Of a DNA stretch of 64,000 nt, positions 38,980-61,419 are shown one piece after another. The DNA is taken from positions 4,068,501-4,132,500 of the forward strand of contig NZ_CP019511.1 in assembly GCF_002002925.1 (NCBI RefSeq), read 5' to 3'. The stretch comes from Sphingomonas sp. LM7. GTDB taxonomy: Bacteria; Pseudomonadota; Alphaproteobacteria; Sphingomonadales; Sphingomonadaceae. The notes beneath the pieces were generated by a model. That model searched no databases. It was not told where the DNA came from and was given only the letters and a program-made list of their open reading frames with translations. A program made the position numbers and the translations under genes. Each line of letters begins with the position of its first letter. The first letter of the stretch is position 1.

Positions 38980-39250
38980 GATGCGCGCTGGTCCCAGGAA
39001 GGTCCGGCCACCCGCTCTTCTGCGCAGTTCGTAACGGCGCGAGTCGCCGCGGTGCCGGCGCCTCTCGATTACACAGAAACCATGGTTCGTGCGTTGGACT
39101 TGATCTAAGACGCGGCCTAGAGACGCGCTCGCCGGAGCGCAGGCATGTGCAGGATGCCATGCCGGTGGGGAGTGGCCATGCTACATATCGTTTTGCCGAG
39201 CGCGGGTGGCGCAGCCAGTGCCGGCCCGGCCGTGCGGAAGCGCTGAGGCC
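38980..39250. other. Intergenic region before the polysaccharide locus
   Basis: About 270 bases. The only notable features are a palindrome AACCATGGTT near 39080 and a possible TTGGAC-type -35 element near 39096. No convincing small gene was found; an in-frame GTG at 39206 could extend the next gene. Confidence 0.4.
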
Positions 39251-40555: not shown

Positions 40556-40709
40556 TGGCGGCCTCCATGGCGCGCGGTGCTGCATCTCGTTGCAGCTGAC
40601 GGCCATCGCGAACGCAGCGGTTTCCTTCCTTCGCCGGGGTTAGCCTTGACTTTCGGGCCCCGGTCTCCTTTTGCGCTCGGCTCCAGCCGGGAGGGCGAGT
40701 GAGGCTTGC

Positions 40710-41990
40710 ATGACAATTCGTGACGACGCGCATATCGTAGTGGTGGGGCTGGGATATGTCGGTTTGCCGCTGGCGCTGGCGCTGGCGCGCCGCTTTCGTG
40801 TTACCGGCCTGGATATCAACGGCCAGCGCATCGACGAACTCAAGTCGCATATCGACCGGACCGACGAAGTCACCGAAGACGTGCTCCGCGGGGCGGTAAT
40901 CGCATTTACCAGCGACGCGAACGATTGCCGTGGCGCCGACTATTACATCGTCACCGTGCCGACGCCGGTCGATGACAAGAACCAGCCCGATCTGCGGCCC
41001 ATCGTCGGCGCGAGCCGGATGGTGGGCGGTTTGATCGACGCCGAACGGCCGGCGGTCGTGGTCTACGAATCCACTGTCTATCCCGGCGTCACCGAATCGA
41101 TTTGCGGGCCATTGATCGAGGAAGTGTCCGGGCTGCAGCGCGGACGGCATTTCTTCCTCGGCTATTCGCCCGAGCGCATCAATCCCGGCGACCGCGAACA
41201 CACCGTCGATCGGATCACCAAGGTCGTCGCCGGGGAGAATCCCGCGATCACCGAGCAGCTTGCCCAGATCTATGGCGCGGTCACGAGCGGCGGCATCCAC
41301 ATCGCCACTTCGATCAAGACGGCAGAGGCCGCGAAGGTGATCGAGAACGCCCAGCGCGACATCAACATCGCGTTCATGAACGAGATCACCCAGATCTTCG
41401 CGAAGATGGACATTTCGATCTGGGATGTCCTGGCTGCGGCCGGGACCAAGTGGAACTTCCTGCCGTTCCAGCCGGGCCTGGTCGGTGGCCACTGTATCGG
41501 CGTCGATCCCTATTATCTGAGCCACCGCGCGCAGGAGCTTGGGCACGAGCCCCGCGTGATCCTCGCCGGCCGCTCGACCAACGACGGCATGGGCGAGTGG
41601 ATCGCCGACGAACTCCACGCGCGCCGTGACGGCAAGGCGGGCAGGGCGTTGGTGATGGGCCTGACCTTCAAGGAGAACGTCCCCGATCTGCGCAACAGCC
41701 GCGTCGTCGATGTGATCGCCCGGCTTCGGCACTTCGGCTACGACGTGGCGGTTCACGATCCGCTGGCCGACGCGGGCGATGCGAACCACGAATATGGTCT
41801 GGCGCTCGACGACGCCGCGCTGTCGGCGCGCTACGATCTCGTCGTCGTCGCGGTCGCGCATGATGCCTATCGCGCGCTGGCCGATGCCGACGTCGCGTCG
41901 CTGGTCGATACCGGCGGGCTCCTCGCCGACCTCAAGAACCTCTATGCCGGCCGGGACTTTGGAACGAACGTCAGGCGCTGGACGCTCTGA
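40710..41990 (+). CDS. UDP-N-acetyl-sugar 6-dehydrogenase (TviB/WbpA-like)
   Basis: A 426-residue nucleotide-sugar dehydrogenase. The NAD motif VVGLGYVGLPLALALARRF is at 10-28, the active-site Cys in VGGHCIGVDPYYLS, and the C-terminal domain includes GLTFKENVPDLRNSRVVDV. The combination SHRAQELGHEP and FKENVPDLRNS is typical of the TviB/WbpA branch that oxidises UDP-GlcNAc or UDP-GalNAc to the uronate, not of Ugd. Start ATG 40710 has GAGG six bases upstream. The product would feed the 3-amino uronate genes downstream. Confidence 0.9.
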   Translation: MTIRDDAHIVVVGLGYVGLPLALALARRFRVTGLDINGQRIDELKSHIDRTDEVTEDVLRGAVIAFTSDANDCRGADYYIVTVPTPVDDKNQPDLRPIVGASRMVGGLIDAERPAVVVYESTVYPGVTESICGPLIEEVSGLQRGRHFFLGYSPERINPGDREHTVDRITKVVAGENPAITEQLAQIYGAVTSGGIHIATSIKTAEAAKVIENAQRDINIAFMNEITQIFAKMDISIWDVLAAAGTKWNFLPFQPGLVGGHCIGVDPYYLSHRAQELGHEPRVILAGRSTNDGMGEWIADELHARRDGKAGRALVMGLTFKENVPDLRNSRVVDVIARLRHFGYDVAVHDPLADAGDANHEYGLALDDAALSARYDLVVVAVAHDAYRALADADVASLVDTGGLLADLKNLYAGRDFGTNVRRWTL

Positions 41991-42007
41991 CACGGGAGCG
42001 TGTGACG

Positions 42008-43552
42008 ATGGTTGACGGCAGGCGGCGAGTATCAGCGGGACGATCGTCGCCGGTTCGCCGACAGGTGCTTGCGGGCGGACTTGCCGTCGGCGCCGCTGCG
42101 GCGCTGGTCGGCGTCCGGGAACTCCTGGCCAGCTCGCCTGAAACCGGATCCCAGCTGACACCCGAGCAGTTCGGCGCGAAAGGCGATGGCCAGACCAACG
42201 ACACGGCGGCGTTCGGCGCGCTGTCCGCAGCGATCAATGCGGCCGGGGGCGGCAGCATCGCGTTGCGCAAGGGCGCAGTCTATGTCGTCGGCGGCCAGAG
42301 CCAGCCCGATGACCCCAAGCCGAGCGGCTATACCTTCTTGCCCGTCGACGTCCTCAAACTCCGCGGCTGTCGCGGCGCAGTCGTGCTGCAAGGGAACGGC
42401 GCCACGCTGCGTGCGATGCCCGGCTATCGCTTCGGGACCTTCGGGCGCGATGGTCGGCCGACGCGCAACAAATTGCCGTTCTACGGACCGGAGGCGGCGG
42501 CCGCCTATCGCGCGATGATCGATGTGGAGGGATGTTCGGGGACGGTTCTGATCGAGAATCTGACGCTGGATGGCAATATCGGCCGCGCCCGGCTGGGCGG
42601 CGGCTGGGGCGACGCCGGAACCCAGCTCCCCGGGTGCGGGCTCGTCTTTCGCAACAACAGCGGCCGCTGGCGGGTCGTCAACGTCCGCGCCTTCCAGCAT
42701 CCCCTCGACGGCATCATGGTCGACGATCCCGGCACGCCGCAGACTCCGGCGTCGGGATCGGGCACCACCGGGTGCGACTTCTATGAAAACGGCAGGCAGG
42801 CGATGAGCATCGTCGGCGGCATCGGGCATTATTTCGAAGACACCAAGTTCCGCCGGACGCGCCGCAATACCGCCGTCGTCAGCCCGCCGGGCGCGGGCGT
42901 CGATCTGGAGGCCGAAGGCGGCAAGCTGGTTCGTGGCACGCGGTTCCTACGCTGTGAAATGACCGACAATGCCGGCCCAGCGCTGCTCCACGGGGGCGGC
43001 AAAGTCAGCGACATCACGCTCACGGAGTGCCGGCTGGTGGGCACGACCACCTGGTCCTATTACAGCTCGGGCGCGAAGGACGTCCGGTTCGTGCGGACCG
43101 TGCTTGTCGGCGCCGTGACGAATTTGCAGGGCGGACCGCAGGGAGAGCTGTTCGACCATTGCCTGCTCACCAACGATCCCGCCGAAGCGCCGAGAGGCAC
43201 GACACCGTACAGTCCGAGCGGGTTCATCATCCCCGACGGCGTGAAGGGCGTGCGGATCATCGGCGGGGAGATTCGCCAGGCTGCGGCCGCGGGCGGCGCG
43301 AACGCCAATTATGATCAGATGCTGCTGGACGGAGTCACGATCCGCGCGACGCGGGGCGAGATCGCGCTTTACGGCCGATTCCAGGGGGCATGCCGCTTCG
43401 TCGAGCAGGGCGGGCGCATTCTGGCGTTGCCGGGCGGTGCCGCCGGCACGCGCGACGCCGGTCACGCAACCGCCGCGTGGACCCTCACCCGCAACGGCAA
43501 GACGACACAATATCCCGCAACCTGCACGCGCTGCCCGCCCGCAAAGGGGTAG
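42008..43552 (+). CDS. Tat-exported right-handed beta-helix protein
   Basis: A 514-residue protein. The N-terminus has RR-x-V-L (SPVRRQVLAGGLAVGAAAAL), a probable Tat signal, then a pectate-lyase-superfamily opening PEQFGAKGDGQTNDTAAFGAL. The body consists of repeating short strands of the parallel beta-helix type, with segments such as GTVLIENLTLDGNIG. I chose the ATG at 42008 because GGGAG lies nine bases upstream; a GTG at 42002 also exists. It follows the dehydrogenase closely. Such proteins cleave or modify acidic polysaccharides, so a processing lyase or epimerase for the exported polymer is possible. Catalytic residues could not be assigned. Confidence 0.72.
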   Translation: MVDGRRRVSAGRSSPVRRQVLAGGLAVGAAAALVGVRELLASSPETGSQLTPEQFGAKGDGQTNDTAAFGALSAAINAAGGGSIALRKGAVYVVGGQSQPDDPKPSGYTFLPVDVLKLRGCRGAVVLQGNGATLRAMPGYRFGTFGRDGRPTRNKLPFYGPEAAAAYRAMIDVEGCSGTVLIENLTLDGNIGRARLGGGWGDAGTQLPGCGLVFRNNSGRWRVVNVRAFQHPLDGIMVDDPGTPQTPASGSGTTGCDFYENGRQAMSIVGGIGHYFEDTKFRRTRRNTAVVSPPGAGVDLEAEGGKLVRGTRFLRCEMTDNAGPALLHGGGKVSDITLTECRLVGTTTWSYYSSGAKDVRFVRTVLVGAVTNLQGGPQGELFDHCLLTNDPAEAPRGTTPYSPSGFIIPDGVKGVRIIGGEIRQAAAAGGANANYDQMLLDGVTIRATRGEIALYGRFQGACRFVEQGGRILALPGGAAGTRDAGHATAAWTLTRNGKTTQYPATCTRCPPAKG

Positions 43553-45571: not shown

Positions 45572-45780
45572 CGCATTCACTCCCAGACGCACCCACGGCG
45601 CAGGCCGTCGTTCACCATCGCGATAACGCTGCGGGACTGCGGACGCCAGTGGCGTGGATGGCCATGAATGTTCGGGCGCCGAGGCTTTTCTTTCGTTGCG
45701 GGTGCGTGCTACGGCGCGCCGCGCGGACAAGTCGCGCCCGTCCGTGGCGCGACCCTCACAACGAAAATGAGAGCCCCGAC

Positions 45781-46953
45781 ATGATTTCGTTCATCGACTT
45801 GCAGGCGCAATATTCGCGAATTCAGGATGAGGTGGAGCAGTCAGTGCTGCGCATCATGCGCAGCGGCACCTTCATCCTCGGCCCCGAAGTGGCGAAGCTC
45901 GAAGAGCGGCTGGCAAGCTATGTCGGCGTGAAGCACTGCGTGTCGTGTGCGTCGGGCACCGATGCGCTGGTCATGGCGCTGATGGCGAAGGGCGTCGGCC
46001 CGGGCGACGCGGTGTTCACCGTGCCCTTCACCTTCATGGCGAGCGCCGAAGCGATCGCGACCGTCGGCGCGACGCCGGTGTTCGTCGATATCGAAGCCGA
46101 CACCTTCAACATCGATACCGGTGCGCTTGACCGTGCAGTCAAGGCGCTTGCCGCCGGCGACCGTTCGATCCACCCGCTGCCGCGTCTCTCGGACGAACAG
46201 ATCGCGAGCCTCAAGCCGCGCGGGATCATCGCCGTCGACCTGTTCGGCCTGCCTGCCGATTATTCGGCGATCAACGCGATCGCCGATGCGAACGATCTGT
46301 TCGTGATCGAGGATGCGGCGCAGAGCTTCGGCGCCAGCGCCAACAACAGCCGCGCAGGTGGGCTCGCCGAGATAGGCTGCACGTCGTTCTTCCCCGCCAA
46401 GCCGCTGGGTTGCTATGGCGACGGCGGCGCGATCTTCACCAATGATCCGGCGTTCGCCGATCTGCTGAAGTCGATCCGAGTCCATGGCCAGGGTTCGGAC
46501 AAGTACGATAATGTCCGCCTGGGCATCACCGGCCGGCTGGATGCGATCCAGGCCGGCGTTCTGCAGGTCAAGCTCGACATATTCGACGACGAGATGGAGC
46601 AGCGTCAGCGCGTCGCCGCAAGCTATCGTCGCGCGATTGCGGCGAGCGGGCTAGATCTCGTCGCTCCCGCGGTGCCGGAGCATCTCGTCAGCGCCTGGGC
46701 GCAATACACCGTCATTGCCGCCGACGATGCCGCGCGCAGCGAATTCCAGAGCCGTTTGTCGGCCAAGGGCATCCCGACGGCGATCTATTACCCCAAGGCG
46801 CTGCACGTGCAGCAGGCGTTCGCCTATCTTGGCTATGCGGAAGGCGACTTCCCGGTTTCGGAGATGCTGGGCAACCGCGTCTTCAGCCTGCCGATGCACC
46901 CGTATCTCCCCGACACGCAGATCGACGAGATCGTCGAAGCATTGAAGGGCTGA
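45781..46953 (+). CDS. DegT/DnrJ/EryC1-type sugar aminotransferase (WbpE-like)
   Basis: A 390-residue PLP enzyme. The sequence opens MISFIDLQAQYSRIQDEVE, contains CASGTDALVMALMA and the PLP-Lys in TSFFPAKPLGCYGDGGA, and ends near LPMHPYLPDTQIDEIVEAL. This is close to WbpE/WlbC, which aminates a 3-keto UDP-sugar. The gene starts the trio with an N-acetyltransferase (four bases apart) and an oxidoreductase, i.e. the enzymes needed to make a 3-acetamido sugar. Confidence 0.9.
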   Translation: MISFIDLQAQYSRIQDEVEQSVLRIMRSGTFILGPEVAKLEERLASYVGVKHCVSCASGTDALVMALMAKGVGPGDAVFTVPFTFMASAEAIATVGATPVFVDIEADTFNIDTGALDRAVKALAAGDRSIHPLPRLSDEQIASLKPRGIIAVDLFGLPADYSAINAIADANDLFVIEDAAQSFGASANNSRAGGLAEIGCTSFFPAKPLGCYGDGGAIFTNDPAFADLLKSIRVHGQGSDKYDNVRLGITGRLDAIQAGVLQVKLDIFDDEMEQRQRVAASYRRAIAASGLDLVAPAVPEHLVSAWAQYTVIAADDAARSEFQSRLSAKGIPTAIYYPKALHVQQAFAYLGYAEGDFPVSEMLGNRVFSLPMHPYLPDTQIDEIVEALKG

Positions 46954-46957
46954 TCGC

Positions 46958-47461
46958 GTGGCCGACAACGTGTTCATCCACCCAACTGCGAACGTCGACG
47001 CCCGCGCCGAGATCGGCGAGGGCACCAAGGTCTGGATCAACGTCCAGATTCGCGAAGGGGCGAAGATCGGCCGCAACTGCATCCTGTCGAAGGATGTCTA
47101 TATCGATCATGCCGTCAGCATCGGCGACGGCTGCAAGGTGCAGAATTCGGTGTCGGTCTATGATGGCGTGACGATCGAGGACGATGTGTTCGTCGGCCCC
47201 AACGCCAGCTTCACCAACGACAAGGTGCCGCGCGCCAACAATCCGGAATGGAAGATCACGCCGACCCTGGTTCGGCGCGGCGCCAGCATCGGCGCCAACG
47301 CCACGATCGTCTGCGGCACGGTGATCGGTGAATATGCGATGATCGCGGCCGGATCGGTGGTGACCAAGGATGTCGAACCCCATGCACTGATGATGGGCAA
47401 CCCCGCGCGGTGCGTCGGCTATGTCGACGAAGCCGGCAACCGTCTCGAGGAACGTCCATGA
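46958..47461 (+). CDS. Hexapeptide N-acetyltransferase (WbpD-like)
   Basis: A 167-residue left-handed beta-helix protein starting at GTG 46958. Repeated hexapeptide motifs run from IGEGTKVWINVQIREGAKIG to GCKVQNSVSVYDGVTI and FVGPNASFTND. This is the pattern of the WbpD/WlbB group that acetylates the 3-amino group of UDP-2-acetamido-3-amino sugars. The stop overlaps the start of the oxidoreductase gene (ATGA). A similar but distinct enzyme is encoded at 58691-59269. Confidence 0.85.
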   Translation: MADNVFIHPTANVDARAEIGEGTKVWINVQIREGAKIGRNCILSKDVYIDHAVSIGDGCKVQNSVSVYDGVTIEDDVFVGPNASFTNDKVPRANNPEWKITPTLVRRGASIGANATIVCGTVIGEYAMIAAGSVVTKDVEPHALMMGNPARCVGYVDEAGNRLEERP

Positions 47462-48417
47462 CTCCCGTCCGCATCGGCATCATTGGTCTGGGCCGGATGG
47501 GCCAGAACCATCTGCGCGTCCTCTCGCTTCTGGCGGGGGCGGACCTGCGCTTCGTCTACGACATCGACGTGGAGAATGCGCGGCGGCTCGGCGAAGCGGC
47601 CAATGTGCCCGCGGTCGAGGATCTCGACCGCGCCCTCGCTGACGTCGAAGCCGTCGTCATCGCCAGCCCGACGACGACGCATGAAGCCTATATCCGCCGT
47701 GCCGCCGAACATGTTTCCAACATCTTCGTCGAGAAGCCCGTCACCGACGCGCTGTCGTCGTCCCTCGCGATCCGCGAGTTCGTCGAGGACCGCTCGATCA
47801 ACTTCCAGGTCGGGCTGATCGAGCGCTTCAATCCCGCGGTCGATCAGATGAAGCGTCTGCTCGACCGTTCCGAGCAAGTTGTCAGCGTGGATTTCGTGCG
47901 CACCAACAAGCTCAGCGCGCGCATTACCGATGTCGATGTGGTCACCGATCTGATGATCCACGACATTGATCTGGCGCTCTATCTCAACGGGCCTGCCATC
48001 GCGGTGTCAGCGCACGGTGTCGCCGAGGGGCCGATGATCGACTATGCAGCGGCGTTGCTTACCCACGAGAATGGCCGTTTCTCGCGAATCCAGGCCAGCC
48101 GCATCACCGACAAGAAGATGCGCAGCATCCAGGCGACCTGCAAGGACATGTTCATCGACTGCGAGCTGCTCCGCAAGGAGATCACGCTGAGCCGCCAGTC
48201 GGAAGTCGAGCAGCGTCCCGGCGAGCCGTACCGGATCATGGCGGTCGAGGAAAAGATCGAGGTCCAGCCGCGCGAGGCGCTCCAGCTCGAACTCCAGGCG
48301 TTTCTCGGCTCCTGCCGCGGAAATCCCGTGGCCGCTGCCGCCGGCGCACGCGAGGGTGTCGACGCCATGGTGGTCTGCGATCAGGTGCTGAAGGCCATAT
48401 TGGGCACTATTGCGTGA
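47458..48417 (+). CDS. Gfo/Idh/MocA-family sugar 3-dehydrogenase
   Basis: A 319-residue NAD-dependent oxidoreductase. The Rossmann motif GIIGLGRMGQNHLRVL is at 7-22, and the EKPVTDAL catalytic Lys lies near 95. DLMIHDIDLALYLN has the His/Asp positions typical of the family. Members of this subgroup beside WbpE- and WbpD-like genes form the 3-keto intermediate of diamino sugars. It differs clearly from the WlbA-type enzyme at 59266-60249, so it may act on UDP-GlcNAc rather than on the uronate. Confidence 0.82.
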   Translation: MTPVRIGIIGLGRMGQNHLRVLSLLAGADLRFVYDIDVENARRLGEAANVPAVEDLDRALADVEAVVIASPTTTHEAYIRRAAEHVSNIFVEKPVTDALSSSLAIREFVEDRSINFQVGLIERFNPAVDQMKRLLDRSEQVVSVDFVRTNKLSARITDVDVVTDLMIHDIDLALYLNGPAIAVSAHGVAEGPMIDYAAALLTHENGRFSRIQASRITDKKMRSIQATCKDMFIDCELLRKEITLSRQSEVEQRPGEPYRIMAVEEKIEVQPREALQLELQAFLGSCRGNPVAAAAGAREGVDAMVVCDQVLKAILGTIA

Positions 48418-48467
48418 CCACCCCAGCGCGCGCAGCGGTCACTTTTGTCTGAGCGGAGCGCGGGGCG

Positions 48468-49604
48468 ATGAAGATCACGCATATCATCCCCGCGCTCACC
48501 AAGGGCGGCGCCGAGCGTGTGCTGATCGATCTGGCGAACGAGGCAGCAGCGGCCGGCCATGACGTGACGGTGGTGCTCGGTGCGCCGGTAGCGCCCGAGC
48601 TGGGGCAGGCGATGCTGCGGCCCGACGTGCGGATTCGCTTCATCAGCCAGTCGTTCTCGAAGCTGGCACGGTATGGACGCCTGCCTGTCTGGCTGGCGGG
48701 GAACTGGCGCTGGCTTCGCGAGCAGGACGTGGTGCATTGCCATCTGACGCTCGCGGCAATCCTCGGCACCGGCATCGGGTGGCTGCGGCGGCTTAGCGGT
48801 TCGTCGCGGCCGGTCGTCGTCGAGACGTTCCACGGGGTGGGCATGCCGATAAAGTGGCGGCAACTCGCGCTGACGACCGCGCTTGCCCGCGGGCGCGACG
48901 GTTTTGCGCTGATGGCGCAGGATTCGCATTGGTCCCGTTTCGCCGAACGGAATCCAGCATTGCCGATTGCGATCATTCCCAACGGCGTCGCGATCAGCGG
49001 TTCGGTGCCGGATACGGCCGCGGTGGCGGCATATCGTCAACAGATCGGTGTGCCCGAGTCGGCGCGATGGATCGTCGGGACGATCGGCCGCATCCTGCCC
49101 GAGCGCAATCCGCTGGCGACCGTCGCCGCGTTCGCGGAGGCCGCGCGATTGCTCGGCGACGATGTCCACTTCCTGATGGGCGGCAGCGGCTCGATGCTGG
49201 AAGAGGTGCGCGCGGCGGGCGACGCGGCCGGCCTTGGCGCCCGGCTGCATTTACCGGGGCTGGTGGTCGAGCCGCGGTTCGCGCTCGCGTTGATGGACGT
49301 CTATGTGAGCATGAATGTCGGCCCGATCACAGGCATTGCCGGGCTCGAGGCGGCTGCCGCGGGGGTTCCGGTGATCGCGGTTCAGGCGCTTGCCGACTAT
49401 CGGCGCGCGCCCGGAGATTGGATCTGGTCCGACCCCGATCCGACGCAGGTTGGCGCGGAAGCGGCGCGCCTGCTCCGCGACGGTGCGGACCGGGCGGCAA
49501 CCGGCCAGCGACAGAAGGCGCACGTCCTTGCGCATCATAGCGCTGCCCATATGATGCACGCTTACGAAGACTTGTACGCGCGGGCACGGGCCGTGATCGA
49601 CTAG
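48468..49604 (+). CDS. Glycosyltransferase family 4
   Basis: A 378-residue GT-B glycosyltransferase. The N-terminal donor-binding start is MKITHIIPALTKGGAERVLIDL and the C-terminal domain includes IGRILPERNPLATVAAF and GGSGSMLEEV. It lacks the usual clear E-x7-E pair, but the overall pattern including GITGIAGLEAAAAGVPVIA is family 4. The gene follows the oxidoreductase with 50 bases between and may be in the same transcript. Acceptor and donor sugar cannot be stated. Confidence 0.8.
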   Translation: MKITHIIPALTKGGAERVLIDLANEAAAAGHDVTVVLGAPVAPELGQAMLRPDVRIRFISQSFSKLARYGRLPVWLAGNWRWLREQDVVHCHLTLAAILGTGIGWLRRLSGSSRPVVVETFHGVGMPIKWRQLALTTALARGRDGFALMAQDSHWSRFAERNPALPIAIIPNGVAISGSVPDTAAVAAYRQQIGVPESARWIVGTIGRILPERNPLATVAAFAEAARLLGDDVHFLMGGSGSMLEEVRAAGDAAGLGARLHLPGLVVEPRFALALMDVYVSMNVGPITGIAGLEAAAAGVPVIAVQALADYRRAPGDWIWSDPDPTQVGAEAARLLRDGADRAATGQRQKAHVLAHHSAAHMMHAYEDLYARARAVID

Positions 49605-49738
49605 GCCGTTCGACCATCGAAGCAGGGCGAAGACCCGGTATATTCCCATCCGGAGGCATGGGCTGCCCGCTATTTTCCGGCAGCGGTCCTGGTGCATTTC
49701 GAGGGAAGTCTCGCGGCTTACAAAAGGGGGAGCAGCGC

Positions 49739-51532
49739 ATGCCATTCGACGGTTCAGGGACCTATGCGCCGCCCGGCCCACCCGTGTTTCCGGCCGATCC
49801 GCTGCTGCCGATACCCGCGCTCGACTACAACGCCACCATCCTGGATGTGGCGGGCGCTTTGAGCGATTGCCTGACGCGCGATGGTCAGGCCGGCATGCTC
49901 GCCGATCTCGATCTGGGCGGCTTCCGCGCCACCGGCCTCGGCGCGCCGACCGCCGCGGCCGATGCGGCCACCAGACACTATGTCGATGACGCGACTGCGC
50001 CACTGGCCGTCCTCGGCATCATCCCGCCCGGCCTGCCGACCGATCCGGCGGTAGACGCTGCGCCGGCGATCAACGCCGCACTCGCCGACTCCGATTACGG
50101 TGTCGTCCTGCTGCCGCCCGGCACCTACGGTCTGCTGTCCTCGATCGTCCTGCAGAGCGGCAAGACGCTGCGCGGCGCGGGCTGGAACCTGACATCGCTC
50201 GTCGCGCTCGACGGTTTCGACAGCGGCATTGCGACCAATAGCCTCGTCTATGGCGCCTCAGCGACGACCGCCGTCGTCGTCTCAGATCTCGCGGTCGATG
50301 GCGGGAAAGTCAGGGGCGGGGGCACCATCCGGCTCACCGGCCTGCAGTTGCGCGGCACCAGTTTCCTTGTCGAGCGGACAATCTCGCGCAACTGCACCGG
50401 CTACGGGCATTTTGCCCAAGGGGATCCGGGCGGGTTCTTCTACGCTTCCGGCACGTTCCGCGACTGCTGGAGCTACAATTGCCAGATTGCCTTCGAACAG
50501 ACCGCGTCGGACGGCGTCCTGCTGGTGAACTGCCATGCGCGTGACGGCGATGGCGACCTGATCGGCACCTATTTCCATCCGCTCACTCGGTCACGCAACA
50601 TCACATATCTGTCATGTACGGCGTACGGAAACGCCTTTGCCGGAGTCGAGTTGATCGCCGATGCCAGTGGCCCGATGGACAATATCCGGATCATCGGCTG
50701 CACTATCCAGATGCTCGGAAACGTGCCCGCGCTCGTTCAGAGCGGCGTCGCGCGAACTACCAACCTGCAGTTGCTGGCGAGCCGCTTCGTCTCGGCGGGG
50801 GGTGCCGCCAGCACGGACATGACATTGGTCGAGGGGAGCGCAGTCCAGTGCGTGTTCGACGGCGGCTTGGTCGGCTCGAACTGGTCGGGCGCGACGATGA
50901 ACTTCACCAATTGCAAGTCGATCGGACGTGCGCAGGGGGTTGGCGTCGCCGCCTATGGTATCGTCGCCACCGGCAACAGCGACCTGCGCTGGTCCGGCGG
51001 GAGTCTGGAGGCTCATGGCGACGCACAACGCTTCTGGACGAGTGTCTCTGCCGGCAGCGTCCTGATCAAGACGCCGGACACCCGGCAGGTTCCAGACGGG
51101 CCGAATGCAACGTTCTCCGCCGCCAATCTGGTGGTCACCGCCAACCGTACCGGCGCCGATCTCTCGGCCGGCTTGCCCTTCGCCTGGGATGCGGCTGATT
51201 ACGACACCGACGGCTATTTCGACCCGACCAAACCCACAAGGCTGACTGTCCGGAACGGCGTCGGCAAAGTAATGATCAACGCCAACACCTTCGTTCAGGA
51301 CATGGTGACGACTGCGTCGGTGCAGATGAGCATCGTCAAGAACGGCAACAAGGTATTGTCGTCCAACGTATCGAACGGCACCCTGTCGCAAGGGCTGTGC
51401 TATACGGCCGGGCCGATCTCGGCAGTGCCGGGGGATTATTTCGAGGTCTGGCTGGGAGTGTCCGGCGATCCGTCGGTCATCATCCAGGCGGCCCGGTGCA
51501 ATTTCAGCATGCACGCGGTGGCATTCACCTGA
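49739..51532 (+). CDS. Phage tailspike-like beta-helix protein in the polysaccharide locus
   Basis: A 597-residue protein; ATG 49739 has GGGGGAG nine bases upstream. Residues 1-85 match the N-terminal region of phage tail fibres: MPFDGSGTYAPPGPP, then ALSDCLTRDGQAGMLADLD and RATGLGAPTAAADAATRHYV, the repeated grammar of phage collar/fibre proteins. The region 95-480 has right-handed beta-helix repeats (for example DPAVDAAPAINAALADSDYG opening, GTYGLLSSIVLQSGKTLRG). The last 95 residues resemble a C1q/TNF-like jelly roll ending MHAVAFT. There is no signal peptide. No phage structural, integrase or lysis gene is near. A domesticated polysaccharide depolymerase or binding protein is the best reading. 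Confidence 0.78.
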   Translation: MPFDGSGTYAPPGPPVFPADPLLPIPALDYNATILDVAGALSDCLTRDGQAGMLADLDLGGFRATGLGAPTAAADAATRHYVDDATAPLAVLGIIPPGLPTDPAVDAAPAINAALADSDYGVVLLPPGTYGLLSSIVLQSGKTLRGAGWNLTSLVALDGFDSGIATNSLVYGASATTAVVVSDLAVDGGKVRGGGTIRLTGLQLRGTSFLVERTISRNCTGYGHFAQGDPGGFFYASGTFRDCWSYNCQIAFEQTASDGVLLVNCHARDGDGDLIGTYFHPLTRSRNITYLSCTAYGNAFAGVELIADASGPMDNIRIIGCTIQMLGNVPALVQSGVARTTNLQLLASRFVSAGGAASTDMTLVEGSAVQCVFDGGLVGSNWSGATMNFTNCKSIGRAQGVGVAAYGIVATGNSDLRWSGGSLEAHGDAQRFWTSVSAGSVLIKTPDTRQVPDGPNATFSAANLVVTANRTGADLSAGLPFAWDAADYDTDGYFDPTKPTRLTVRNGVGKVMINANTFVQDMVTTASVQMSIVKNGNKVLSSNVSNGTLSQGLCYTAGPISAVPGDYFEVWLGVSGDPSVIIQAARCNFSMHAVAFT

Positions 51533-52838
51533 TCCGGCTGCGTGGGCCCATCAGCTTGGCATATTCGTCGCGCTCGTGCTGGTTGAGCGCCTCGGGATCC
51601 AGGATCTCAAGTGCGCGGGCCCGGGCCGCCTTGCCCATCGCCTCCGCATAGTGCCGGTCACGGATCAGGCGCTCGGCGCCATCGGCGAGCCTGGTGCAAT
51701 CGCGGAAGGGCACCAGCTCACCGGTCTCGCCCGTCTGGATGAGATCGGCCTGCCAATCCAGATCATAAGCGACGATCGGTGCCGCACCCAGTGCGGATTC
51801 GGATAGCGCACGGCCGGTGAGGGGCGAAATGACCGCCGCCGCGTGCGGATTGAGCTGGGACAAGGCATGCTGGTTCTGGTTTCCGGCGAAGACGACGCGA
51901 TCGCCGACGCCTTCCGCAACCGCCAGTTCGGCAAGCTCGTCGCGCATCGGCCCATCGCCGGCCATCACCAGCTTGAGGTCGTGTCCGCGCCGCACCAGCT
52001 CGGCGAGAACCCGAACTGCATCGTCGGGGAATTTCACTGCCTGGAGCCGGCCGACGCACAGCAGATACGCGCCCAGCGTCACGCCCAGCGCGGCGAAGAG
52101 CGCCGCATCGCAGCCGCGCGCCTCTGGCGGCTGGAGATGCGCTTCGGCCAGCAAATTGCCATAGCGGAAGATCGTCACGCGATCGGGCCGCGCGCCGTTA
52201 GCGATCGAGAAGTCGACATTGTCCTGGTTCGGCGCGGCAACCAAGTCCGCGCGCGGGAAAACGAAATGCTCGACCTTCTTCTCGCGCGCCGCCGTGCCGA
52301 ACAGTTTGGGATAGAGCGGCTGGCCGGTGCTTTCACGGACCTTGTCGTTGTTGCCGTTGACGCGGATCAGCATGGGGATGCCGCTCAGCCGCGCGAGAGC
52401 GAGGCCGAACAGTCCGAGATAGAGCGGATCGCCGACCCGGATGACGCGGATCTTCTCGCGCCGGATCAGGCGAAGCAGCGTGAAGAACAGCCCGAGCTGG
52501 CTCAGTACGAAATTTATCGGGAAGAAGCGGGCCAACGCAGCGAGCCGCCCGACTTTGCCCTCGATGAAGGTGTGCCGCGGCGCAAGCTCGTGCCACACCG
52601 GCTTGCCGAACTTCGGCGTCCATTTTTCCGAAGTGAGCAGCGTCGCGAAGGGATGAACGCTCCAGACATGGCGGAAGAACCCGTCCAGATCGCGGCATGT
52701 TACCGAATCCTTGAGACCGCGCTCGCGGATCATCTCCAGCGTATAGGATGCGTCGAGCACGAGCATCGCAGGCCGTGGACCAGCGCTGTCATATCCCGCC
52801 GATACCCCAGCTTGCGGTTGTTCTTGCGAGCCTTCCAT
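51525..52838 (-). CDS. Glycosyltransferase (GT4-like)
   Basis: A 437-residue protein on the minus strand, overlapping the end of the tailspike gene by eight bases. The C-terminal half shows a GT-B pattern: YLLCVGRLQAVKFPDDAVRVLAELV, LVMAGDGPMRDEL and a late SPLTGRALSESALGAAPIVA with a sugar-binding type Glu. The N-terminal half contains VRVNGNNDKV-like sequence typical of related transferases. The start is uncertain: ATG 52838 was preferred, and 52766 or 52895 are also possible. It probably adds one sugar of the repeat unit. Confidence 0.75.
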   Translation of the reverse strand: MEGSQEQPQAGVSAGYDSAGPRPAMLVLDASYTLEMIRERGLKDSVTCRDLDGFFRHVWSVHPFATLLTSEKWTPKFGKPVWHELAPRHTFIEGKVGRLAALARFFPINFVLSQLGLFFTLLRLIRREKIRVIRVGDPLYLGLFGLALARLSGIPMLIRVNGNNDKVRESTGQPLYPKLFGTAAREKKVEHFVFPRADLVAAPNQDNVDFSIANGARPDRVTIFRYGNLLAEAHLQPPEARGCDAALFAALGVTLGAYLLCVGRLQAVKFPDDAVRVLAELVRRGHDLKLVMAGDGPMRDELAELAVAEGVGDRVVFAGNQNQHALSQLNPHAAAVISPLTGRALSESALGAAPIVAYDLDWQADLIQTGETGELVPFRDCTRLADGAERLIRDRHYAEAMGKAARARALEILDPEALNQHERDEYAKLMGPRSRIR

Positions 52839-52988
52839 GCGCTGCCACCCCGTTTTGCAGTGCCGCCCCTTAGGGTTGCGCCAGAGGCAGGGCAACGATC
52901 CTTATTGCATTGACCGTTCGCCACGCGTGCCGCTACAGCCGCCTCACTTGGGCCCGCCGGGCCCGTATCCAGACAATTTTGGGGGATC

Positions 52989-54050: not shown

Positions 54051-55304
54051 ATGGACCGGCGCCAGTATCTACGCCACTTCATGGTGCTGTTCTCCGGAAC
54101 GGCCGCGGCGCAGCTCGTCAACCTCGCGAGCTATCCCTTTCTGGCGCGGCTCTACACGCCCGCGGATTTCGGTGTCTTCGCGATGTTCGTCGCGGTCTCG
54201 GCGATTCCGGGCGCGATCGCATGCGGCCGCTTCGACCTGGCGGTGCCGACTGCGCCGAGAGCCGGGCGGTTCGCTATCCTATGGCTATGCATCGCCATCG
54301 CCGCAGCAATGGGCGCGCTGTCAGCAGTCGGCTCCGCGCTCTACTGGGTCGTGACCGGTGCCCAAGTCCAGCCGGTGATCCCGGCACTGCTCGGCTTGTG
54401 CGTGTTCCTCACCGGCTTCTGCGCCGCCGCTGCGCTCTATCTCATGCGGCACGACGGCTATCGGAGCAATTCGGCGTCGATGCTCCTGCGTACCGGCAGC
54501 ACCGTCGCCATCCAGATCGGTCTGGCACTGGTCTGGCGGCATCCCCTGTCGCTCATCATCGGATTCACCTTGGGCTTCGCGGCGCAGGCGCTGCTGCTCG
54601 CATGGGCGATCTGGCGGCATGTGCCCCCCAAGCGGCCGCGCGTGGCGCAGATGCGCGCGATGTTCCGCCGCTATCAGCGCCAGGTCGCGATCGACATTCC
54701 CAGCACCTTCATCGCGGCAGTGTCGCTCAACCTGCTCACCTTCCTGCTGCTCGGGCTGTTCGGCGCGAACGTGGTCGGCCTTTATTCGCTGGGCAACCGC
54801 ATCGCGATTCTGCCGCTCCAGTTGTTCAATGACGCGCTGAGCCAGGTTTTCTTCCAGAAAGCTGCGCGGGCGCAGGAGGAGCGCGGGCATTTCTGGCCCG
54901 AGATGAAGTTCAATCTGCTGACCTCCGGGCTGCTTTCGATCGGCGTGGTGGTCGGCGTCTGGCTGCTCGCCCGCCCATTCATCTCGATCTATCTCGGAAA
55001 GTCGTGGGAGCCAGCGGCGGACATCCTCGTCATCCTTGCGCCGATGCTGGCGGCGCGCAGCCTGTGCCTGTCGATCGCAACTTCGGTCTTCGTGCTGCGC
55101 AAGGCGCATTGGCTGCTGATCCACAATGTCGCCAATTGCGCGGCGCTGGGCGCTGCATTCGTCATCGCGCGGCTCGCCGATCTGGATCTATACCCCTTCC
55201 TGACGCTGACCGCGGGGCTATTGTTCGTTGAATATGTCGGCTTCACGCTGTGGCTCGTCTGGGCGGCGCGCCGCGGCGCGCATCCCAAAGTCGTCGCGCT
55301 ATAG
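54051..55304 (+). CDS. Polysaccharide flippase / Wzx-like membrane protein
   Basis: A 417-residue protein with about twelve membrane segments. The opening FMVLFSGTAAAQLVNLASYPFL followed by RLYTPADFGVFAMFVAV is the standard start of Wzx/PST flippases, and VGLYSLGNRIAILPLQL with FNDALSQVFFQKAA matches the second half. It carries the lipid-linked repeat unit across the inner membrane. It lies at the centre of the locus, after the epimerase (45 bases) and convergent with the amidotransferase gene. Confidence 0.88.
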   Translation: MDRRQYLRHFMVLFSGTAAAQLVNLASYPFLARLYTPADFGVFAMFVAVSAIPGAIACGRFDLAVPTAPRAGRFAILWLCIAIAAAMGALSAVGSALYWVVTGAQVQPVIPALLGLCVFLTGFCAAAALYLMRHDGYRSNSASMLLRTGSTVAIQIGLALVWRHPLSLIIGFTLGFAAQALLLAWAIWRHVPPKRPRVAQMRAMFRRYQRQVAIDIPSTFIAAVSLNLLTFLLLGLFGANVVGLYSLGNRIAILPLQLFNDALSQVFFQKAARAQEERGHFWPEMKFNLLTSGLLSIGVVVGVWLLARPFISIYLGKSWEPAADILVILAPMLAARSLCLSIATSVFVLRKAHWLLIHNVANCAALGAAFVIARLADLDLYPFLTLTAGLLFVEYVGFTLWLVWAARRGAHPKVVAL

Positions 55305-55342: not shown

Positions 55343-56485
55343 TCATTTCCAGACCAGACGGCCGACCTTGAGGTTCATGCGGCGATACAGCGCCAGCAGC
55401 TTCTGGAAGAACGCCGCCTCTGACGGATAGTCGGTATGGGGTCTTTCCGGGCGCGCGATATAGTCCGCGAACTTCTCCTCGGACCAGCCCATCTTCTTGA
55501 TGAAGTAGAGGCGATCCGCCTCCATATCCTTCTCGCTTGGATAGGCGATGCCGGCAGCGCGCTCGAGCGCCTCGTCGCGCGTCATTTCGCCGGTCATGAT
55601 CAGGCTGGAGAGGTGCGGTTTCCGCTTGTCGACGCCGAACTTATAGGGCTGCAGATAGCCCTGGTAGAAGCGCGTGAACACCGACTCATAGTGTTTATGG
55701 GCATAGGGCTTGTAGCCAAAGTCGCGCTGCAGAACCTCCAGCGCATCGCTCTTGCGGTAATCGAGATAGTCGAGGAACGAGACCCATTTGATCCGATTCA
55801 CGCCGATGTAGCGGACCATGTCCAGCGTGCTTAGCGACGGGAACGACTTCAGCCGGGGCCCGCCGAATCGCTTGGAGATGCCGATGATGTTGCGCTTGTC
55901 CGCCTTGTGCCAATTCCACGTCGAGGGGATGTCGACACCCTCGGTGGCGATGTTGGTGCCGGCGAGGATATATTTCAGGCCGTGCCTAGCCGCCTGCTGA
56001 TAGTTCACCGCGAGCATCGCATTGTCGTAGAGCACTTCGACATCGATCACGTCGGAGGCGAAGAAAGCCTCCATCAGCCCGCGGATCTCGGGCCAGTCGA
56101 TGACATGGGTGTAGAGATCGACGTTGAGGCCGCGCACGAGATTGGCGATGTTGTTCTGCGCCAGCTCCGAATTCCATCCGCTGTCCATGTGGACTGCCAG
56201 CGGTCGCAGCCCGAGACGCACTGCCTGAACCAGCGACCAGCTCGAATCGACGCCGCCCGAAAGCCCGACGATGCAGTCGTATTTCTTGCCCTTGCCCGCT
56301 TCCTTGACCATTGCGACGAGGCCGTTGAGCCGCCGCAGCCGCTCATTCTCGTCGAAGGGAAGGTGCTTTTCCTTCTTGCGCAGGAAATCCGAGCAATAGT
56401 TGCAGATGCCCTGCTCATCGAAAACGATGTCCGGCGCGGTGGTGTCCATGATGCACCGCGAGCAGGTCTGGACGTTGGGTATCAC
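55343..56485 (-). CDS. N-acetyl sugar amidotransferase (WbpG/LfnA-like)
   Basis: A 380-residue PP-loop enzyme. A zinc-type CxxC...CxxC arrangement is at C8-C11 (CSRC) and C28-C31 (CNYC), and the PP-loop SGGVDSSWSLVQ is at 76-87. It continues with AVHMDSGWNSELAQNNI and AGTNIATEGVDIPSTWNWHKAD. WbpG and LfnA use ammonia from HisH, channelled by HisF, to convert an acetamido group into an acetamidino group on the sugar. The start overlaps the HisF-like stop by four bases, fitting a three-gene unit HisH-HisF-WbpG. Confidence 0.92.
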   Translation of the reverse strand: MIPNVQTCSRCIMDTTAPDIVFDEQGICNYCSDFLRKKEKHLPFDENERLRRLNGLVAMVKEAGKGKKYDCIVGLSGGVDSSWSLVQAVRLGLRPLAVHMDSGWNSELAQNNIANLVRGLNVDLYTHVIDWPEIRGLMEAFFASDVIDVEVLYDNAMLAVNYQQAARHGLKYILAGTNIATEGVDIPSTWNWHKADKRNIIGISKRFGGPRLKSFPSLSTLDMVRYIGVNRIKWVSFLDYLDYRKSDALEVLQRDFGYKPYAHKHYESVFTRFYQGYLQPYKFGVDKRKPHLSSLIMTGEMTRDEALERAAGIAYPSEKDMEADRLYFIKKMGWSEEKFADYIARPERPHTDYPSEAAFFQKLLALYRRMNLKVGRLVWK

Positions 56486-57255
56486 TCGGCATCACTCCAA
56501 AGCGCGCGTAGTTGGTCATATTGGGGATAGGTGATGAGCACGGCGCGGTGCGGGCCCTGAAATACGAAATATGCGCCCGCGGCAACCGCACTGGCGCCGG
56601 CGTCGGTGGCAGCCTTGATATCGGCCAGTGACGAAATGCCGCCGACCGCCACCAGCGGCACGTCCGCGATCTGGCTCGCCTCGCGGATCAGCTCCAGGTC
56701 GGGCCCGGCAAGCGTCCCGTCGCGATCCACGGCATTGAGCAGGATCTCGCCAGCACCATTGGCGACGGCGTCGCGCACGGCCTGGCGCCAGTCGCTCTGA
56801 CCCGGCTTTACCCCGGTGGCGCTGAACGCCTGCAGCTTGCCCAGCCAGCCGCGCTTTACGTCGATCGAGACCACCACCGCCTGTTCCCCGGCATGATCGG
56901 CGATTTCGCGCACGATTCCCGGGTTGCGCGCGACGGCGCTCTGCAGCGAGACCTTCTCGACGCCGAGGCTGAACAGCTTCAGCGCCTCCTCGGCGGTGCG
57001 GATGCCGCCGCCATAGCAGAGCGGCATGAAGCATTCGCTCGCAAGCTGTTCGATGAGATCGAAATCGGGCCCGCGGTTCTCCCGCGTAGCGTCGATGTCG
57101 AGTATCATCAGCTCGTCGACTTCCTTCTCGTTGAAGATTTTCACGGCGTTGATCGGGTCGCCGACATATTTCGGCTTGCCGAACTTCATCGTCTTTACGA
57201 GGCCGCCCCGGCTTTCGCTGAGCAGCAAGCAGGGAATGACGCGATGAGTCAGCAT
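56482..57255 (-). CDS. HisF-like ammonia-channel subunit of a sugar amidotransferase
   Basis: A 257-residue TIM barrel of the HisF family. It begins MLTHRVIPCLLLSESRGGLVK, in which the catalytic Asp of true cyclases (CLD-V) is replaced by Leu (PCLLL). The second acidic site is kept (VVVSIDVKRGW). GGGIRTAEEAL and GASAVAAGAYFVFQG preserve the phosphate-binding loops. Loss of the first Asp argues against imidazole glycerol phosphate synthesis and for the paralogue that serves WbpG. It overlaps hisH by seven bases and the amidotransferase by four. Confidence 0.88.
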   Translation of the reverse strand: MLTHRVIPCLLLSESRGGLVKTMKFGKPKYVGDPINAVKIFNEKEVDELMILDIDATRENRGPDFDLIEQLASECFMPLCYGGGIRTAEEALKLFSLGVEKVSLQSAVARNPGIVREIADHAGEQAVVVSIDVKRGWLGKLQAFSATGVKPGQSDWRQAVRDAVANGAGEILLNAVDRDGTLAGPDLELIREASQIADVPLVAVGGISSLADIKAATDAGASAVAAGAYFVFQGPHRAVLITYPQYDQLRALWSDAE

Positions 57256-57866
57256 GGCATCGCCAGGAAACGCCGCATCAGCGCCAGCCCGAAACGATGG
57301 CTCTTCTCGGGGTGGAACTGGACCCCGTAGATGTTGTCGCGGTGGACGGCGGTAGTGAAGGTCGTGCCATAGTCGGCGGTGGCGAGCACGTTTTCGGCAC
57401 TATCGCAGACGGCGCGGTATTTGTGGACGTGATAGAAACGCTGCTCGCCTTCGTCCGAGGAGATTAACGGGTTTGGCCTGGCGGCAGTCACCACCGACCA
57501 GCCCATGTGCGGGATCTTCAGCTCGCGATGCCCGCCGGTGTCGATCTTGATTACATCGGCCTCGATCCAGCCCAGTCCCGGCGTCACGCCCTCTTCACTG
57601 CGGCGGCACAGGAGTTGCATGCCCAGGCAGATGCCGAGAATAGGGATCTTGCGCTCCAGCGCGAGCCGGTTGAGCGGCTCGATCCAGCCCTGGTTGAGCT
57701 TCGCCATCCCCGCGTCGAAGGCGCCGACGCCGGGGATAACCACGCGCTTGCAGTCGTGCAGCGCCGCGGGGTCGCTGACGATGTCCGCGCTGCCGTCGGC
57801 TGCCTGGAACATGCGCTGGACCGACTTGATGTTGCCGATCCCGCAATCGACAATAGTCACGTCCAT
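57249..57866 (-). CDS. HisH-like glutaminase subunit of a sugar amidotransferase
   Basis: A 205-residue glutamine amidotransferase. ATG 57866 is preferred over a TTG at 57881 because GGAG sits nine bases upstream. The nucleophile is in ILGICLGMQLLCRRS, the His and Glu of the triad are in YGVQFHPEKSHRFG, and the start DVTIVDCGIGNIKSVQRMF matches HisH. It supplies ammonia to the HisF-like barrel and, through it, to the WbpG-like enzyme. It is the first gene of the three-gene unit. Confidence 0.9.
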   Translation of the reverse strand: MDVTIVDCGIGNIKSVQRMFQAADGSADIVSDPAALHDCKRVVIPGVGAFDAGMAKLNQGWIEPLNRLALERKIPILGICLGMQLLCRRSEEGVTPGLGWIEADVIKIDTGGHRELKIPHMGWSVVTAARPNPLISSDEGEQRFYHVHKYRAVCDSAENVLATADYGTTFTTAVHRDNIYGVQFHPEKSHRFGLALMRRFLAMPC

Positions 57867-58040
57867 TGGAGAAGGCTCCAAAAGAGGGTCTTCCCGCCCG
57901 CGCGGGCGCTTGGCAAGCGATGCATGGCATGTCGCTTAGCTGGTCGCTGCCGAGCCGCCAACCCCCGGGTTGCGACTGGCCAGACGGGCTCGCGATCCTT
58001 ACGGGTTGCCGGCGCCATCTGGAGCAGGAAAGGTTTGGAA

Positions 58041-60366: not shown

Positions 60367-61419
60367 TCAGAGCAGGTAATTGCGATAGGGCAGCCAATAT
60401 TCCGCATGTTGCGCGAAAATCAGCCAGATCACCTGCACTGATGCCGAGTATACCAGCACGAAGGCGACCAGCTGACCGTTCCGCATGCTGCGGGCGGGAT
60501 AGGCATAAGGCAGGCGGCCCAGCACGAACAACTGCAACGGGATCAGATAGAGCGCGAAACGATCGACTACCGTCGAGGAGGACATCACGAGAAGCCCGAC
60601 GAAGCAGGCGAGCGAAGCATAGGCGAAGTTGCGCCAGATCCGCTTTTCCTGCTCCGACACCGCAAAGCGGTCCTGCGCTACCAGATACAATATGGCGGGC
60701 AGGATGTTCATCGCGATTCGGATGCCAGCGCCTTGCGAGCTGCGCTCCGCATCGAAGTAGTTGGCGAACATCGAAGCGAGGAAGGTCTCGAGAAACAGGA
60801 AGAACAGCAACCCAGCGAGGACCGCGCCAATCGAGTAGATCACGAAGCGGTGTCGGATCGATGCGCCGACGATCAGCGGCATGATCAGCACGGCGCTCTT
60901 GTGGAACGCCGCCGCCAGGATGAACAGGAACAGGAAACGGACATAGCGGCCCTGCTCGAACCGCATCAGCGCGGCCATGACCAGCCCGATCGCGGTCGCC
61001 TGCCGGGTGTATCCCATGGCGACGACGATGATCAGATAGGGGACGCCAACCGCGATGGTGAGCCAGGGATTGGGCTGTTGCTGCGCGAACACCACAAGCC
61101 CCCAGGTGAAGATCATCGCGCAGATCAGATTGACCAGCCAGATGTCGACATTCAGGTAATGGGCGAGCGTATTGAGCGCCATGTACGCCGGATCCTGAAG
61201 CGCCATCGCCTCTCCGAACGACATCCCGCCCACATAATCGAAGATTACGACGTAATTCTGCCAGTCGGCGCCGACACGCAGGCGCAGGCCGATGGCAAGC
61301 ACGATGAGCACGGCGGCAGCGAGCAAAAGCGGCGAGGGCCTGTTTTGGTCGCGCCCCTTCAGGCTGTACGACACTGCGCCCAGCGCGAACACCGCAAACA
61401 ACAGCCAATAAGGGAACAC
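60367..61419 (-). CDS. EpsG-like polysaccharide polymerase (Wzy)
   Basis: A 350-residue membrane protein with about ten segments. RLRVGADWQNYVVIFDYVGG near 47-66 and the AAAFHKSAVLIMPLI segment are typical of EpsG/Wzy-type polymerases, which join repeat units at the periplasmic face. GTG start at 61419 with GGAG seven bases upstream. Polymerases are poorly conserved, so the role rests on the membrane pattern, the EpsG-type motifs and position in the locus. Confidence 0.8.
   Translation of the reverse strand: MFPYWLLFAVFALGAVSYSLKGRDQNRPSPLLLAAAVLIVLAIGLRLRVGADWQNYVVIFDYVGGMSFGEAMALQDPAYMALNTLAHYLNVDIWLVNLICAMIFTWGLVVFAQQQPNPWLTIAVGVPYLIIVVAMGYTRQATAIGLVMAALMRFEQGRYVRFLFLFILAAAFHKSAVLIMPLIVGASIRHRFVIYSIGAVLAGLLFFLFLETFLASMFANYFDAERSSQGAGIRIAMNILPAILYLVAQDRFAVSEQEKRIWRNFAYASLACFVGLLVMSSSTVVDRFALYLIPLQLFVLGRLPYAYPARSMRNGQLVAFVLVYSASVQVIWLIFAQHAEYWLPYRNYLL

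Follow-up and report, generated by a model that had tools for sequence, protein, structure and literature searches.

Within a 64,000-nucleotide stretch of the chromosome of the alphaproteobacterium Sphingomonas sp. LM7 (NZ_CP019511.1, positions 4,068,501 to 4,132,500; hereafter the window), a gene lying among polysaccharide biosynthesis genes encodes a protein with the architecture of a phage tailspike, with a virion-anchor N-terminus, a right-handed beta-helix and a C-terminal domain shared with phages. The gene for this protein, here called the spike, is a long-term resident of the polysaccharide locus and no stray, and purifying selection acts on each of its three modules. It is probable that the spike is a polymer-specific polysaccharide-processing enzyme, resident in the locus and cast in phage-tailspike format, that acts on the acidic polymer of the same locus. 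The spike gene would then be a permanent part of a Wzx/Wzy-type locus, its beta-helix would work as a lyase or C5-epimerase-like enzyme, the substrate would be the locus's own acidic polymer, and the result may be trimming, remodelling or release of this polymer, by analogy with the enzymes WceF and WelR.

Residence in the locus is best seen in Sphingomonas kyeonggiensis DS2008, where the whole locus is found in the same order and a spike occupies the same slot (67.6% identity over 605 residues; this genome is G066 in our numbering, the source genome G000 and S. panni G089). Between the two species the ratio of nonsynonymous to synonymous divergence (dN/dS, Nei-Gojobori) is 0.26 for the spike, with 0.21 for the N-terminal module, 0.25 for the helix and 0.37 for the C-terminal module, values that are rough because dS is near 1; the ratios of 11 other locus genes lie between 0.07 for WbuX and 0.45 for Wzy_C, the polymerase having 0.31 and two glycosyltransferases 0.29 and 0.30. 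Codon use of the spike gene is ordinary (rank 20 of the 51 called genes of the window) and its third-position GC matches each genome, 0.80 in the source genome and 0.88 in S. kyeonggiensis. Glycosyltransferase genes on both sides were recognized by Pfam, and no phage gene was read, by eye and not by profile, in the window or in the chromosome at 4050000-4069999 and 4131000-4150999, about 18 kb on each side, where a prophage or tailocin module had been looked for. On all of these points the initial annotation, which described a gene of normal regional codon use between glycosyltransferase genes and free of phage neighbours, proved accurate, and its suggestion that the gene had been domesticated towards the organism's own polymer has gained from the synteny, the selection and the further locus copies and RTX-format relative described below.

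The gene starts at ATG 49739, which follows a good ribosome-binding sequence in our reading. An in-frame upstream ATG at 49658 was rejected because of this sequence and because, in the S. kyeonggiensis ortholog, no start is possible between a stop and the same methionine. The gap upstream of the gene measures 134 bases; a promoter scan of 48300-51700 gave one promoter-like and one terminator-like site, which is chance level, and neither lies inside the gap.

The likeness of the N-terminus to phage tail fibres, claimed in the initial annotation, was recovered by several routes. Residues 1-92 match PHROG 2647, 11338 and 13989 (head decoration, tail fiber and virion structural; E 4e-5 to 9e-5), and P0002, a protein 67–68% identical to the spike, matches PHROG 13989 at E 2.6e-8 with the same offset. 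From Met1 onward the N-terminus aligns collinearly with the fibre-position protein of phage MW202489 (43% over 63 residues, E 1e-5). A weaker alignment of the same kind exists with that of phage BUCT555 (36.5%, E 0.3), and this piece matches no other phage record at E 1. In MW202489 tail tubular and stabilisation proteins are annotated upstream of the fibre, and gene order in BUCT555 is similar, its proteins being mostly annotated as hypothetical. Among viral contigs, relatives of the N-terminal alignment are encoded in 299 of 396 pattern-matching stretches, and 68 of the best 80 such loci also code for proteins homologous to the tubular or stabilisation proteins of MW202489 and BUCT555; the anchor therefore looks like that of a short-tailed phage. 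Among 67 anchor proteins read from the best 80 loci, none carries the helix of the spike. In the PDB, three tail fibres are matched by an N-terminal profile (E 4e-4 to 1.5e-3), with the match confined to residues ~52-90, and AlphaFold does not model the fold of the N-terminus confidently, though the sequence matches phage fibre modules. Weighing against the likeness, a search of a protein database restricted to residues 1-92 returned only the spike itself and P0002.

At the other end, tblastn found 14 phage records, of which 13 match the C-terminus (Xanthomonas Mallos, Variovorax V45iii and others), the C-terminus of P0002 matches PHROG 11660 (E 4.6e-10), and a protein with a GP-PDE domain is matched in the PDB (9eul, E 1.8e-4). 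A C-terminal domain common to phage tail proteins is thus present, but the jelly-roll-like fold that had been read there is not confirmed by the model, in which pLDDT, the per-residue confidence of AlphaFold, is about 60. Phage records match solely these two ends of the protein. The whole protein has no close relative in viral contigs, no match in a plasmid search and no NCBIfam family at E 1e-10, and a protein family search with it gave eight entries, the query included.

The predicted right-handed beta-helix between the two ends is well founded, since PF12708 matches the central region (E 2.2e-6) and AlphaFold models most of residues 100-400 with pLDDT near 90, and up to 450 with 74–84. In a fold search whose matches concern residues 88-474 alone, the closest fold among the matches listed was the A-module of the AlgE mannuronan C5-epimerases, which is also the best profile match; WceF is not among the 50 fold matches listed. 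D187, K190, Y222, E253 and H280, the putative catalytic residues, are conserved in the helix family, for which 21 members were compared and placed in a tree (P0003 and P0006 without an assigned packaging). Tyr149 of AlgE aligns with Y222 and is the only catalytic residue with a clear counterpart. On these comparisons the best reading of the helix is a lyase or C5-epimerase-like enzyme.

Members of this family occur in different formats. Anchored spikes lie in the polysaccharide loci of the source genome, S. kyeonggiensis and S. panni, and the locus of the last has in common with the window a polymerase (50%), transferases and a second beta-helix protein encoded at 42002-43552 (the 42002-type protein). 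The N- and C-terminal modules of the S. panni locus spike match a prophage spike of G120 at 32% and 51%. Anchor-less spikes lie in the polysaccharide loci of G162 (62374-64080, between the polymerase and the 42002-type protein) and G126 (24948-26648). From their residue 6 they align to residue 61 or 57 onward of the prophage spikes L101 and L102 (36–40%) and therefore lack the preceding part, and they also lack about the last third of these spikes; the first 55 residues of L101 are shared with another prophage spike (47%). Pfam and PHROGs assign no family to the G162, G126 and S. panni locus copies. In G556, which belongs to another genus and has 13 locus genes 62–89% identical to those of the window, the slot of the spike holds on the opposite strand an 822-residue protein of repeats-in-toxin (RTX) format (L150, G556:C1:954487-956955; repeats seen by eye), 70% and 66% identical to RTX-format proteins encoded elsewhere in the source genome and in S. 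kyeonggiensis. A further RTX-format member adjoins polysaccharide genes in G673. Prophage spikes, identified as such by reading their neighbours, are found in S. panni (G089:C12), G120 (two), G228 and as L101 and L102. The two of G120 stand in tandem (L043, G120:C12:395767-399992), with the same helix family and different N-termini.

In the tree the three RTX-format proteins of G556, the source genome and S. kyeonggiensis group together (100/100), the S. panni locus copy falls with the prophage spikes of G089:C12 and G120 (100/99), and the G162 and G126 copies fall with L101 and L102 (100/100). The spikes of the source genome and S. kyeonggiensis form a pair without a resolved sister, G228 and G673 are long branches, and open forks remain. 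Tailspike-format copies are therefore present in polysaccharide loci of five genomes and in three clades. A single helix family, apparently linked to a single kind of polysaccharide locus, thus comes packaged in three ways, as anchored spike, anchor-less spike and RTX protein, and in one case the RTX and spike formats occupy an identical slot of the same locus. The exchange of polymer-cutting enzymes between phages and hosts can be studied along this natural series.

A scan of 295 genomes of the genus (E 1e-3) gave a match in 27, of which two are full length (the source genome and S. kyeonggiensis), three have a strong helix match (G120, S. panni and G228) and 22 are weak and short. Nine of the weak matches were inspected, and six are secreted-looking proteins of pectate-lyase type, two have no sensible frame and one, from G022, is a fibre whose N-terminus is related and whose surroundings are phage-like. 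These single-sequence counts are lower bounds, because a profile scan found the G162 and G126 copies that such a search had missed. At E 1e-15 the helix is present in 3 of 397 genomes drawn from the taxonomic family (the source genome, G556 and G673) and is therefore rare there.

Several observations weigh against an enzyme dedicated to the polymer of its own locus. For Asp152, His154 and Asp178 of AlgE no counterpart was placed in the alignment; K190 is replaced by arginine in four of the 21 family members and D271 is kept in 17. Both the enzyme activity and the polymer substrate are putative. An RTX-format relative elsewhere in the source genome and S. kyeonggiensis means that the spike may be redundant, and constraint also acts on the N-terminal anchor, for which an enzyme that is purely free has no obvious use. 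Among 13 other genomes with a 42002-type protein, the profile scan found a helix-family member within the fetched stretch in two (G162 and G126) and none in the other 11, several of whose stretches end at contig ends; the 42002-type locus therefore does not require a spike. A co-occurrence of the two families (four of five genomes within 16 of 295, p 3e-5, or 4e-4 with the source genome and S. kyeonggiensis taken as one) was estimated after the fact, without regard to kinship and before the G162 and G126 copies had come to light; it is not relied on here.

As the initial annotation had it for the spike, all five tailspike-format locus copies appear signal-less, those of the source genome and S. 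kyeonggiensis by a crude hydropathy scan with no signal predictor applied and the other three by eye. The likeliest exit routes are release on lysis, free or particle-attached, or an unrecognised export route common to the other signal-less locus copies, and the way in which signal-less exopolysaccharide (EPS) enzymes of sphingomonads exit the cell becomes testable. Loading of the spike onto a particle is no more than a possibility, because S. kyeonggiensis, although it retains the spike gene, yielded no intact gene transfer agent (GTA) or extracellular contractile injection system (eCIS). The source genome has a GTA-like cluster (2784584-2800173; L138, L139) with terminase and portal matched by model, a capsid-like gene read by eye and a megatron-like protein that matches Rcc01698_C (E 3.6e-25) and lacks the GTA_TIM part, followed by a small gene that is presumably DUF2793-like. 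It also has an eCIS-like cluster (C1, about 1078154-1108475; L112-L114) with sheath-, tube- and baseplate-type genes, Baseplate_J being matched by model; most component names in the two clusters are our assumption. One fibre-like gene of the eCIS-like cluster carries a collagen repeat. GTA_TIM (PF13547) was found in none of 11 genomes, a Caulobacter control being positive, and this did not exclude a GTA, because the GTA-like cluster was then found through its terminase and portal. S. kyeonggiensis has no eCIS by an Afp11-like search and a GTA remnant (L140, G066:C1:335940-345841) in which terminase and tail-tip genes remain and no portal, capsid or tail-tube gene was read, nor a portal found by PF04860. 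It also carries a P2-like prophage, by reading, and a lone further terminase at G066:C2:124441 among housekeeping genes. The earlier idea of a particle encoded elsewhere thus holds in part, as far as the source genome contains candidate clusters, whereas in S. kyeonggiensis no intact GTA or eCIS came to light.

These data bear on whether the spike is loaded onto such a GTA-like, eCIS-like or prophage particle and eases the passage of that particle through the polymer of sister cells, the role that TspA has for the GTA of Rhodobacter capsulatus (RcGTA). The constrained virion-anchor N-terminus and the two clusters of the source genome speak for this, as does a preprint in which RcGTA carries the ectopically encoded, detachable and biofilm-degrading TspA (PMC13420450), but we consider it unlikely in view of the state of S. 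kyeonggiensis, the type of the anchor and the anchor-less G162 and G126 copies, which argue that the locus role needs no particle. Tubular and stabilisation proteins, whose homologs most of the viral anchor loci encode, are not known to belong to the GTA or eCIS tail type. The constraint in the source genome and S. kyeonggiensis argues that the anchor does something there; as has been proposed for WceF, this could be to aid solubility or to stabilise the trimer. As for a resident prophage, the only PF03237 match in the source genome is the GTA-like terminase, and the terminase of MW202489 matches this model (E 8.6e-7) whereas that of BUCT555 does not; a resident MW202489-like prophage is therefore unlikely, and PF03237 cannot speak to a BUCT555-like one. 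PF11134 (P22 gp10-like) gave no match in five genomes, which is uninformative because the model recognizes neither the MW202489 stabilisation protein nor the protein at the corresponding position in BUCT555, which is annotated only as hypothetical. It is rather improbable that the locus carries its own particle spike, such that inheriting the polymer genes brings a matching spike for the GTA or prophage particles of the cell to wear; if true, gene transfer would be steered to cells of the same coat, and any swap of loci would pass the spike on together with the coat.

The anchor and C-terminal modules are phage-like, and the locus copies of S. panni, G162 and G126 group with tailspikes of prophages, yet a receptor-binding-protein gene parked in the locus by recombination and serving no host function is very improbable. 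Such a gene would not be expected in the same slot of two species with every module at dN/dS below 0.4, an open frame, neighbour-like codon use and its putative active-site residues kept, and neither the joining of anchor and helix nor a close relative of the whole protein was seen in the viral data described above. Least probable is an anti-phage enzyme, released on lysis, that strips neighbouring kin of the polymer and thereby shields them from phages that use it as receptor. It fits the missing signal-like stretch, and prophages of the same genus (G089:C12, G120 and G228) use the same helix family in their tailspikes, so that this polymer type is plausibly a phage receptor, but no lysis or defence gene was read next to the spike gene (reading only, PADLOC not run). 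The locus-resident enzyme therefore remains the explanation we favour.

The locus itself extends over about 39206-64000 with Wzx/Wzy-type polysaccharide genes recognized by Pfam and NCBIfam profiles (Table 1); the HisF, acetyltransferase and AsnB labels come from sequence reading only. Relatives of the 42002-43552 protein occur in 16 of the 295 genomes of the genus, by eye mostly beside polysaccharide genes, and those in G213 and G054 lie inside phage-like tail modules. Of the two beta-helix proteins of the locus, this may be the one that resembles WceF more.

Table 1. Features of the spike gene and the surrounding polysaccharide locus (positions in the window).
Feature	Position	Strand	Basis
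Tailspike-like protein, 597 aa	49739..51532	+	Open reading frame, domain and profile matches, AlphaFold model
Ribosome-binding region before ATG 49739	49722..49738	+	Sequence reading; S. kyeonggiensis ortholog also preceded by one
N-terminal virion-anchor-type module, residues 1-92	49739..50014	+	PHROG, phage collinearity, viral-contig scan
Right-handed beta-helix, AlgE-like, residues 95-455; D187, K190, Y222, E253, H280 conserved	50021..51103	+	PF12708, AlphaFold, fold search, alignment
C-terminal domain common to phage tail proteins, residues 476-597	51164..51529	+	tblastn, PHROG, PDB profile
Priming sugar-phosphate transferase, EPS_sugtrans family, below model cut-off	39206..40555	+	NCBIfam profile
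Nucleotide-sugar dehydrogenase, over cut-off; TviB-like below cut-off	40671..41990	+	Pfam and NCBIfam
Second beta-helix protein, twin-arginine-type signal (motif by eye)	42002..43552	+	Profiles, hydropathy; homologs in G066, G089, G556
DegT sugar aminotransferase	45649..46953	+	Pfam
Gfo/Idh/MocA oxidoreductase	47410..48417	+	Pfam
Glycosyltransferase GT4a, upstream neighbour of spike	48468..49604	+	Pfam; 68% to G066, 67% to G556
Glycosyltransferase GT4b, convergent downstream neighbour	51525..52895	-	Pfam; 71% to G066, 79% to G556
Flippase, Wzx-type, Polysacc_synt_3	54051..55304	+	Pfam
N-acetyl sugar amidotransferase WbuX	55343..56485	-	NCBIfam
HisH-type glutamine amidotransferase subunit	57249..57881	-	NCBIfam; HisF-like gene (by eye) between WbuX and HisH
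EpsG-type (Wzy) polymerase	60367..61419	-	Pfam
Wzy_C / O-antigen ligase family	62686..63972	-	Pfam

Compared with known systems, the gene lies inside a biosynthesis locus and is conserved there, as is expected of a locus-encoded EPS enzyme, and it has the anchor, beta-helix and C-terminal domain of a phage tailspike, with polysaccharide genes on both sides in place of a phage or prophage. Towards the fibres of MW202489 and BUCT555 the likeness is confined to the N-terminal ~63 residues, and their distal parts do not match the helix of the spike. The A-module of AlgE is the closest solved fold but distant in sequence, at about 18% identity, and in its catalytic residues; RTX-linked forms of AlgE exist, as they do in the helix family of the spike. 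TspA is likewise a tailspike-type beta-helix encoded away from the particle genes, but its N-terminus is described as a beta-sandwich where that of the spike matches phage fibre modules, and the authors found no homolog outside Rhodobacterales (PMC13420450). Neither this gene nor an exchange of formats within a single slot is described in the literature covered, which leaves out most subscription journals. The placement itself has precedents in two known enzymes. WceF of Pantoea stewartii is a solved trimeric beta-helix EPS enzyme of tailspike fold with a P22-like head domain and a jelly-roll, encoded in an EPS cluster whose own polymer it hydrolyses (PMC7949094); by description it resembles the spike in its tailspike-type build and its setting, but has a twin-arginine signal where hydropathy shows none in the spike, whose anchor matches other phage fibres and whose helix is closest to AlgE. 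WelR, the welan gum lyase of Sphingomonas sp. WG, comes from the same genus, belongs to the biosynthesis genes of welan gum and degrades the polymer of its own organism with a beta-helix followed by a lectin-like domain; no signal peptide is reported for it, nor, unlike for the spike, a phage anchor (PMC7899989; compared by description). The best reading of the spike is that it is comparable to both of these locus-encoded, own-polymer enzymes.
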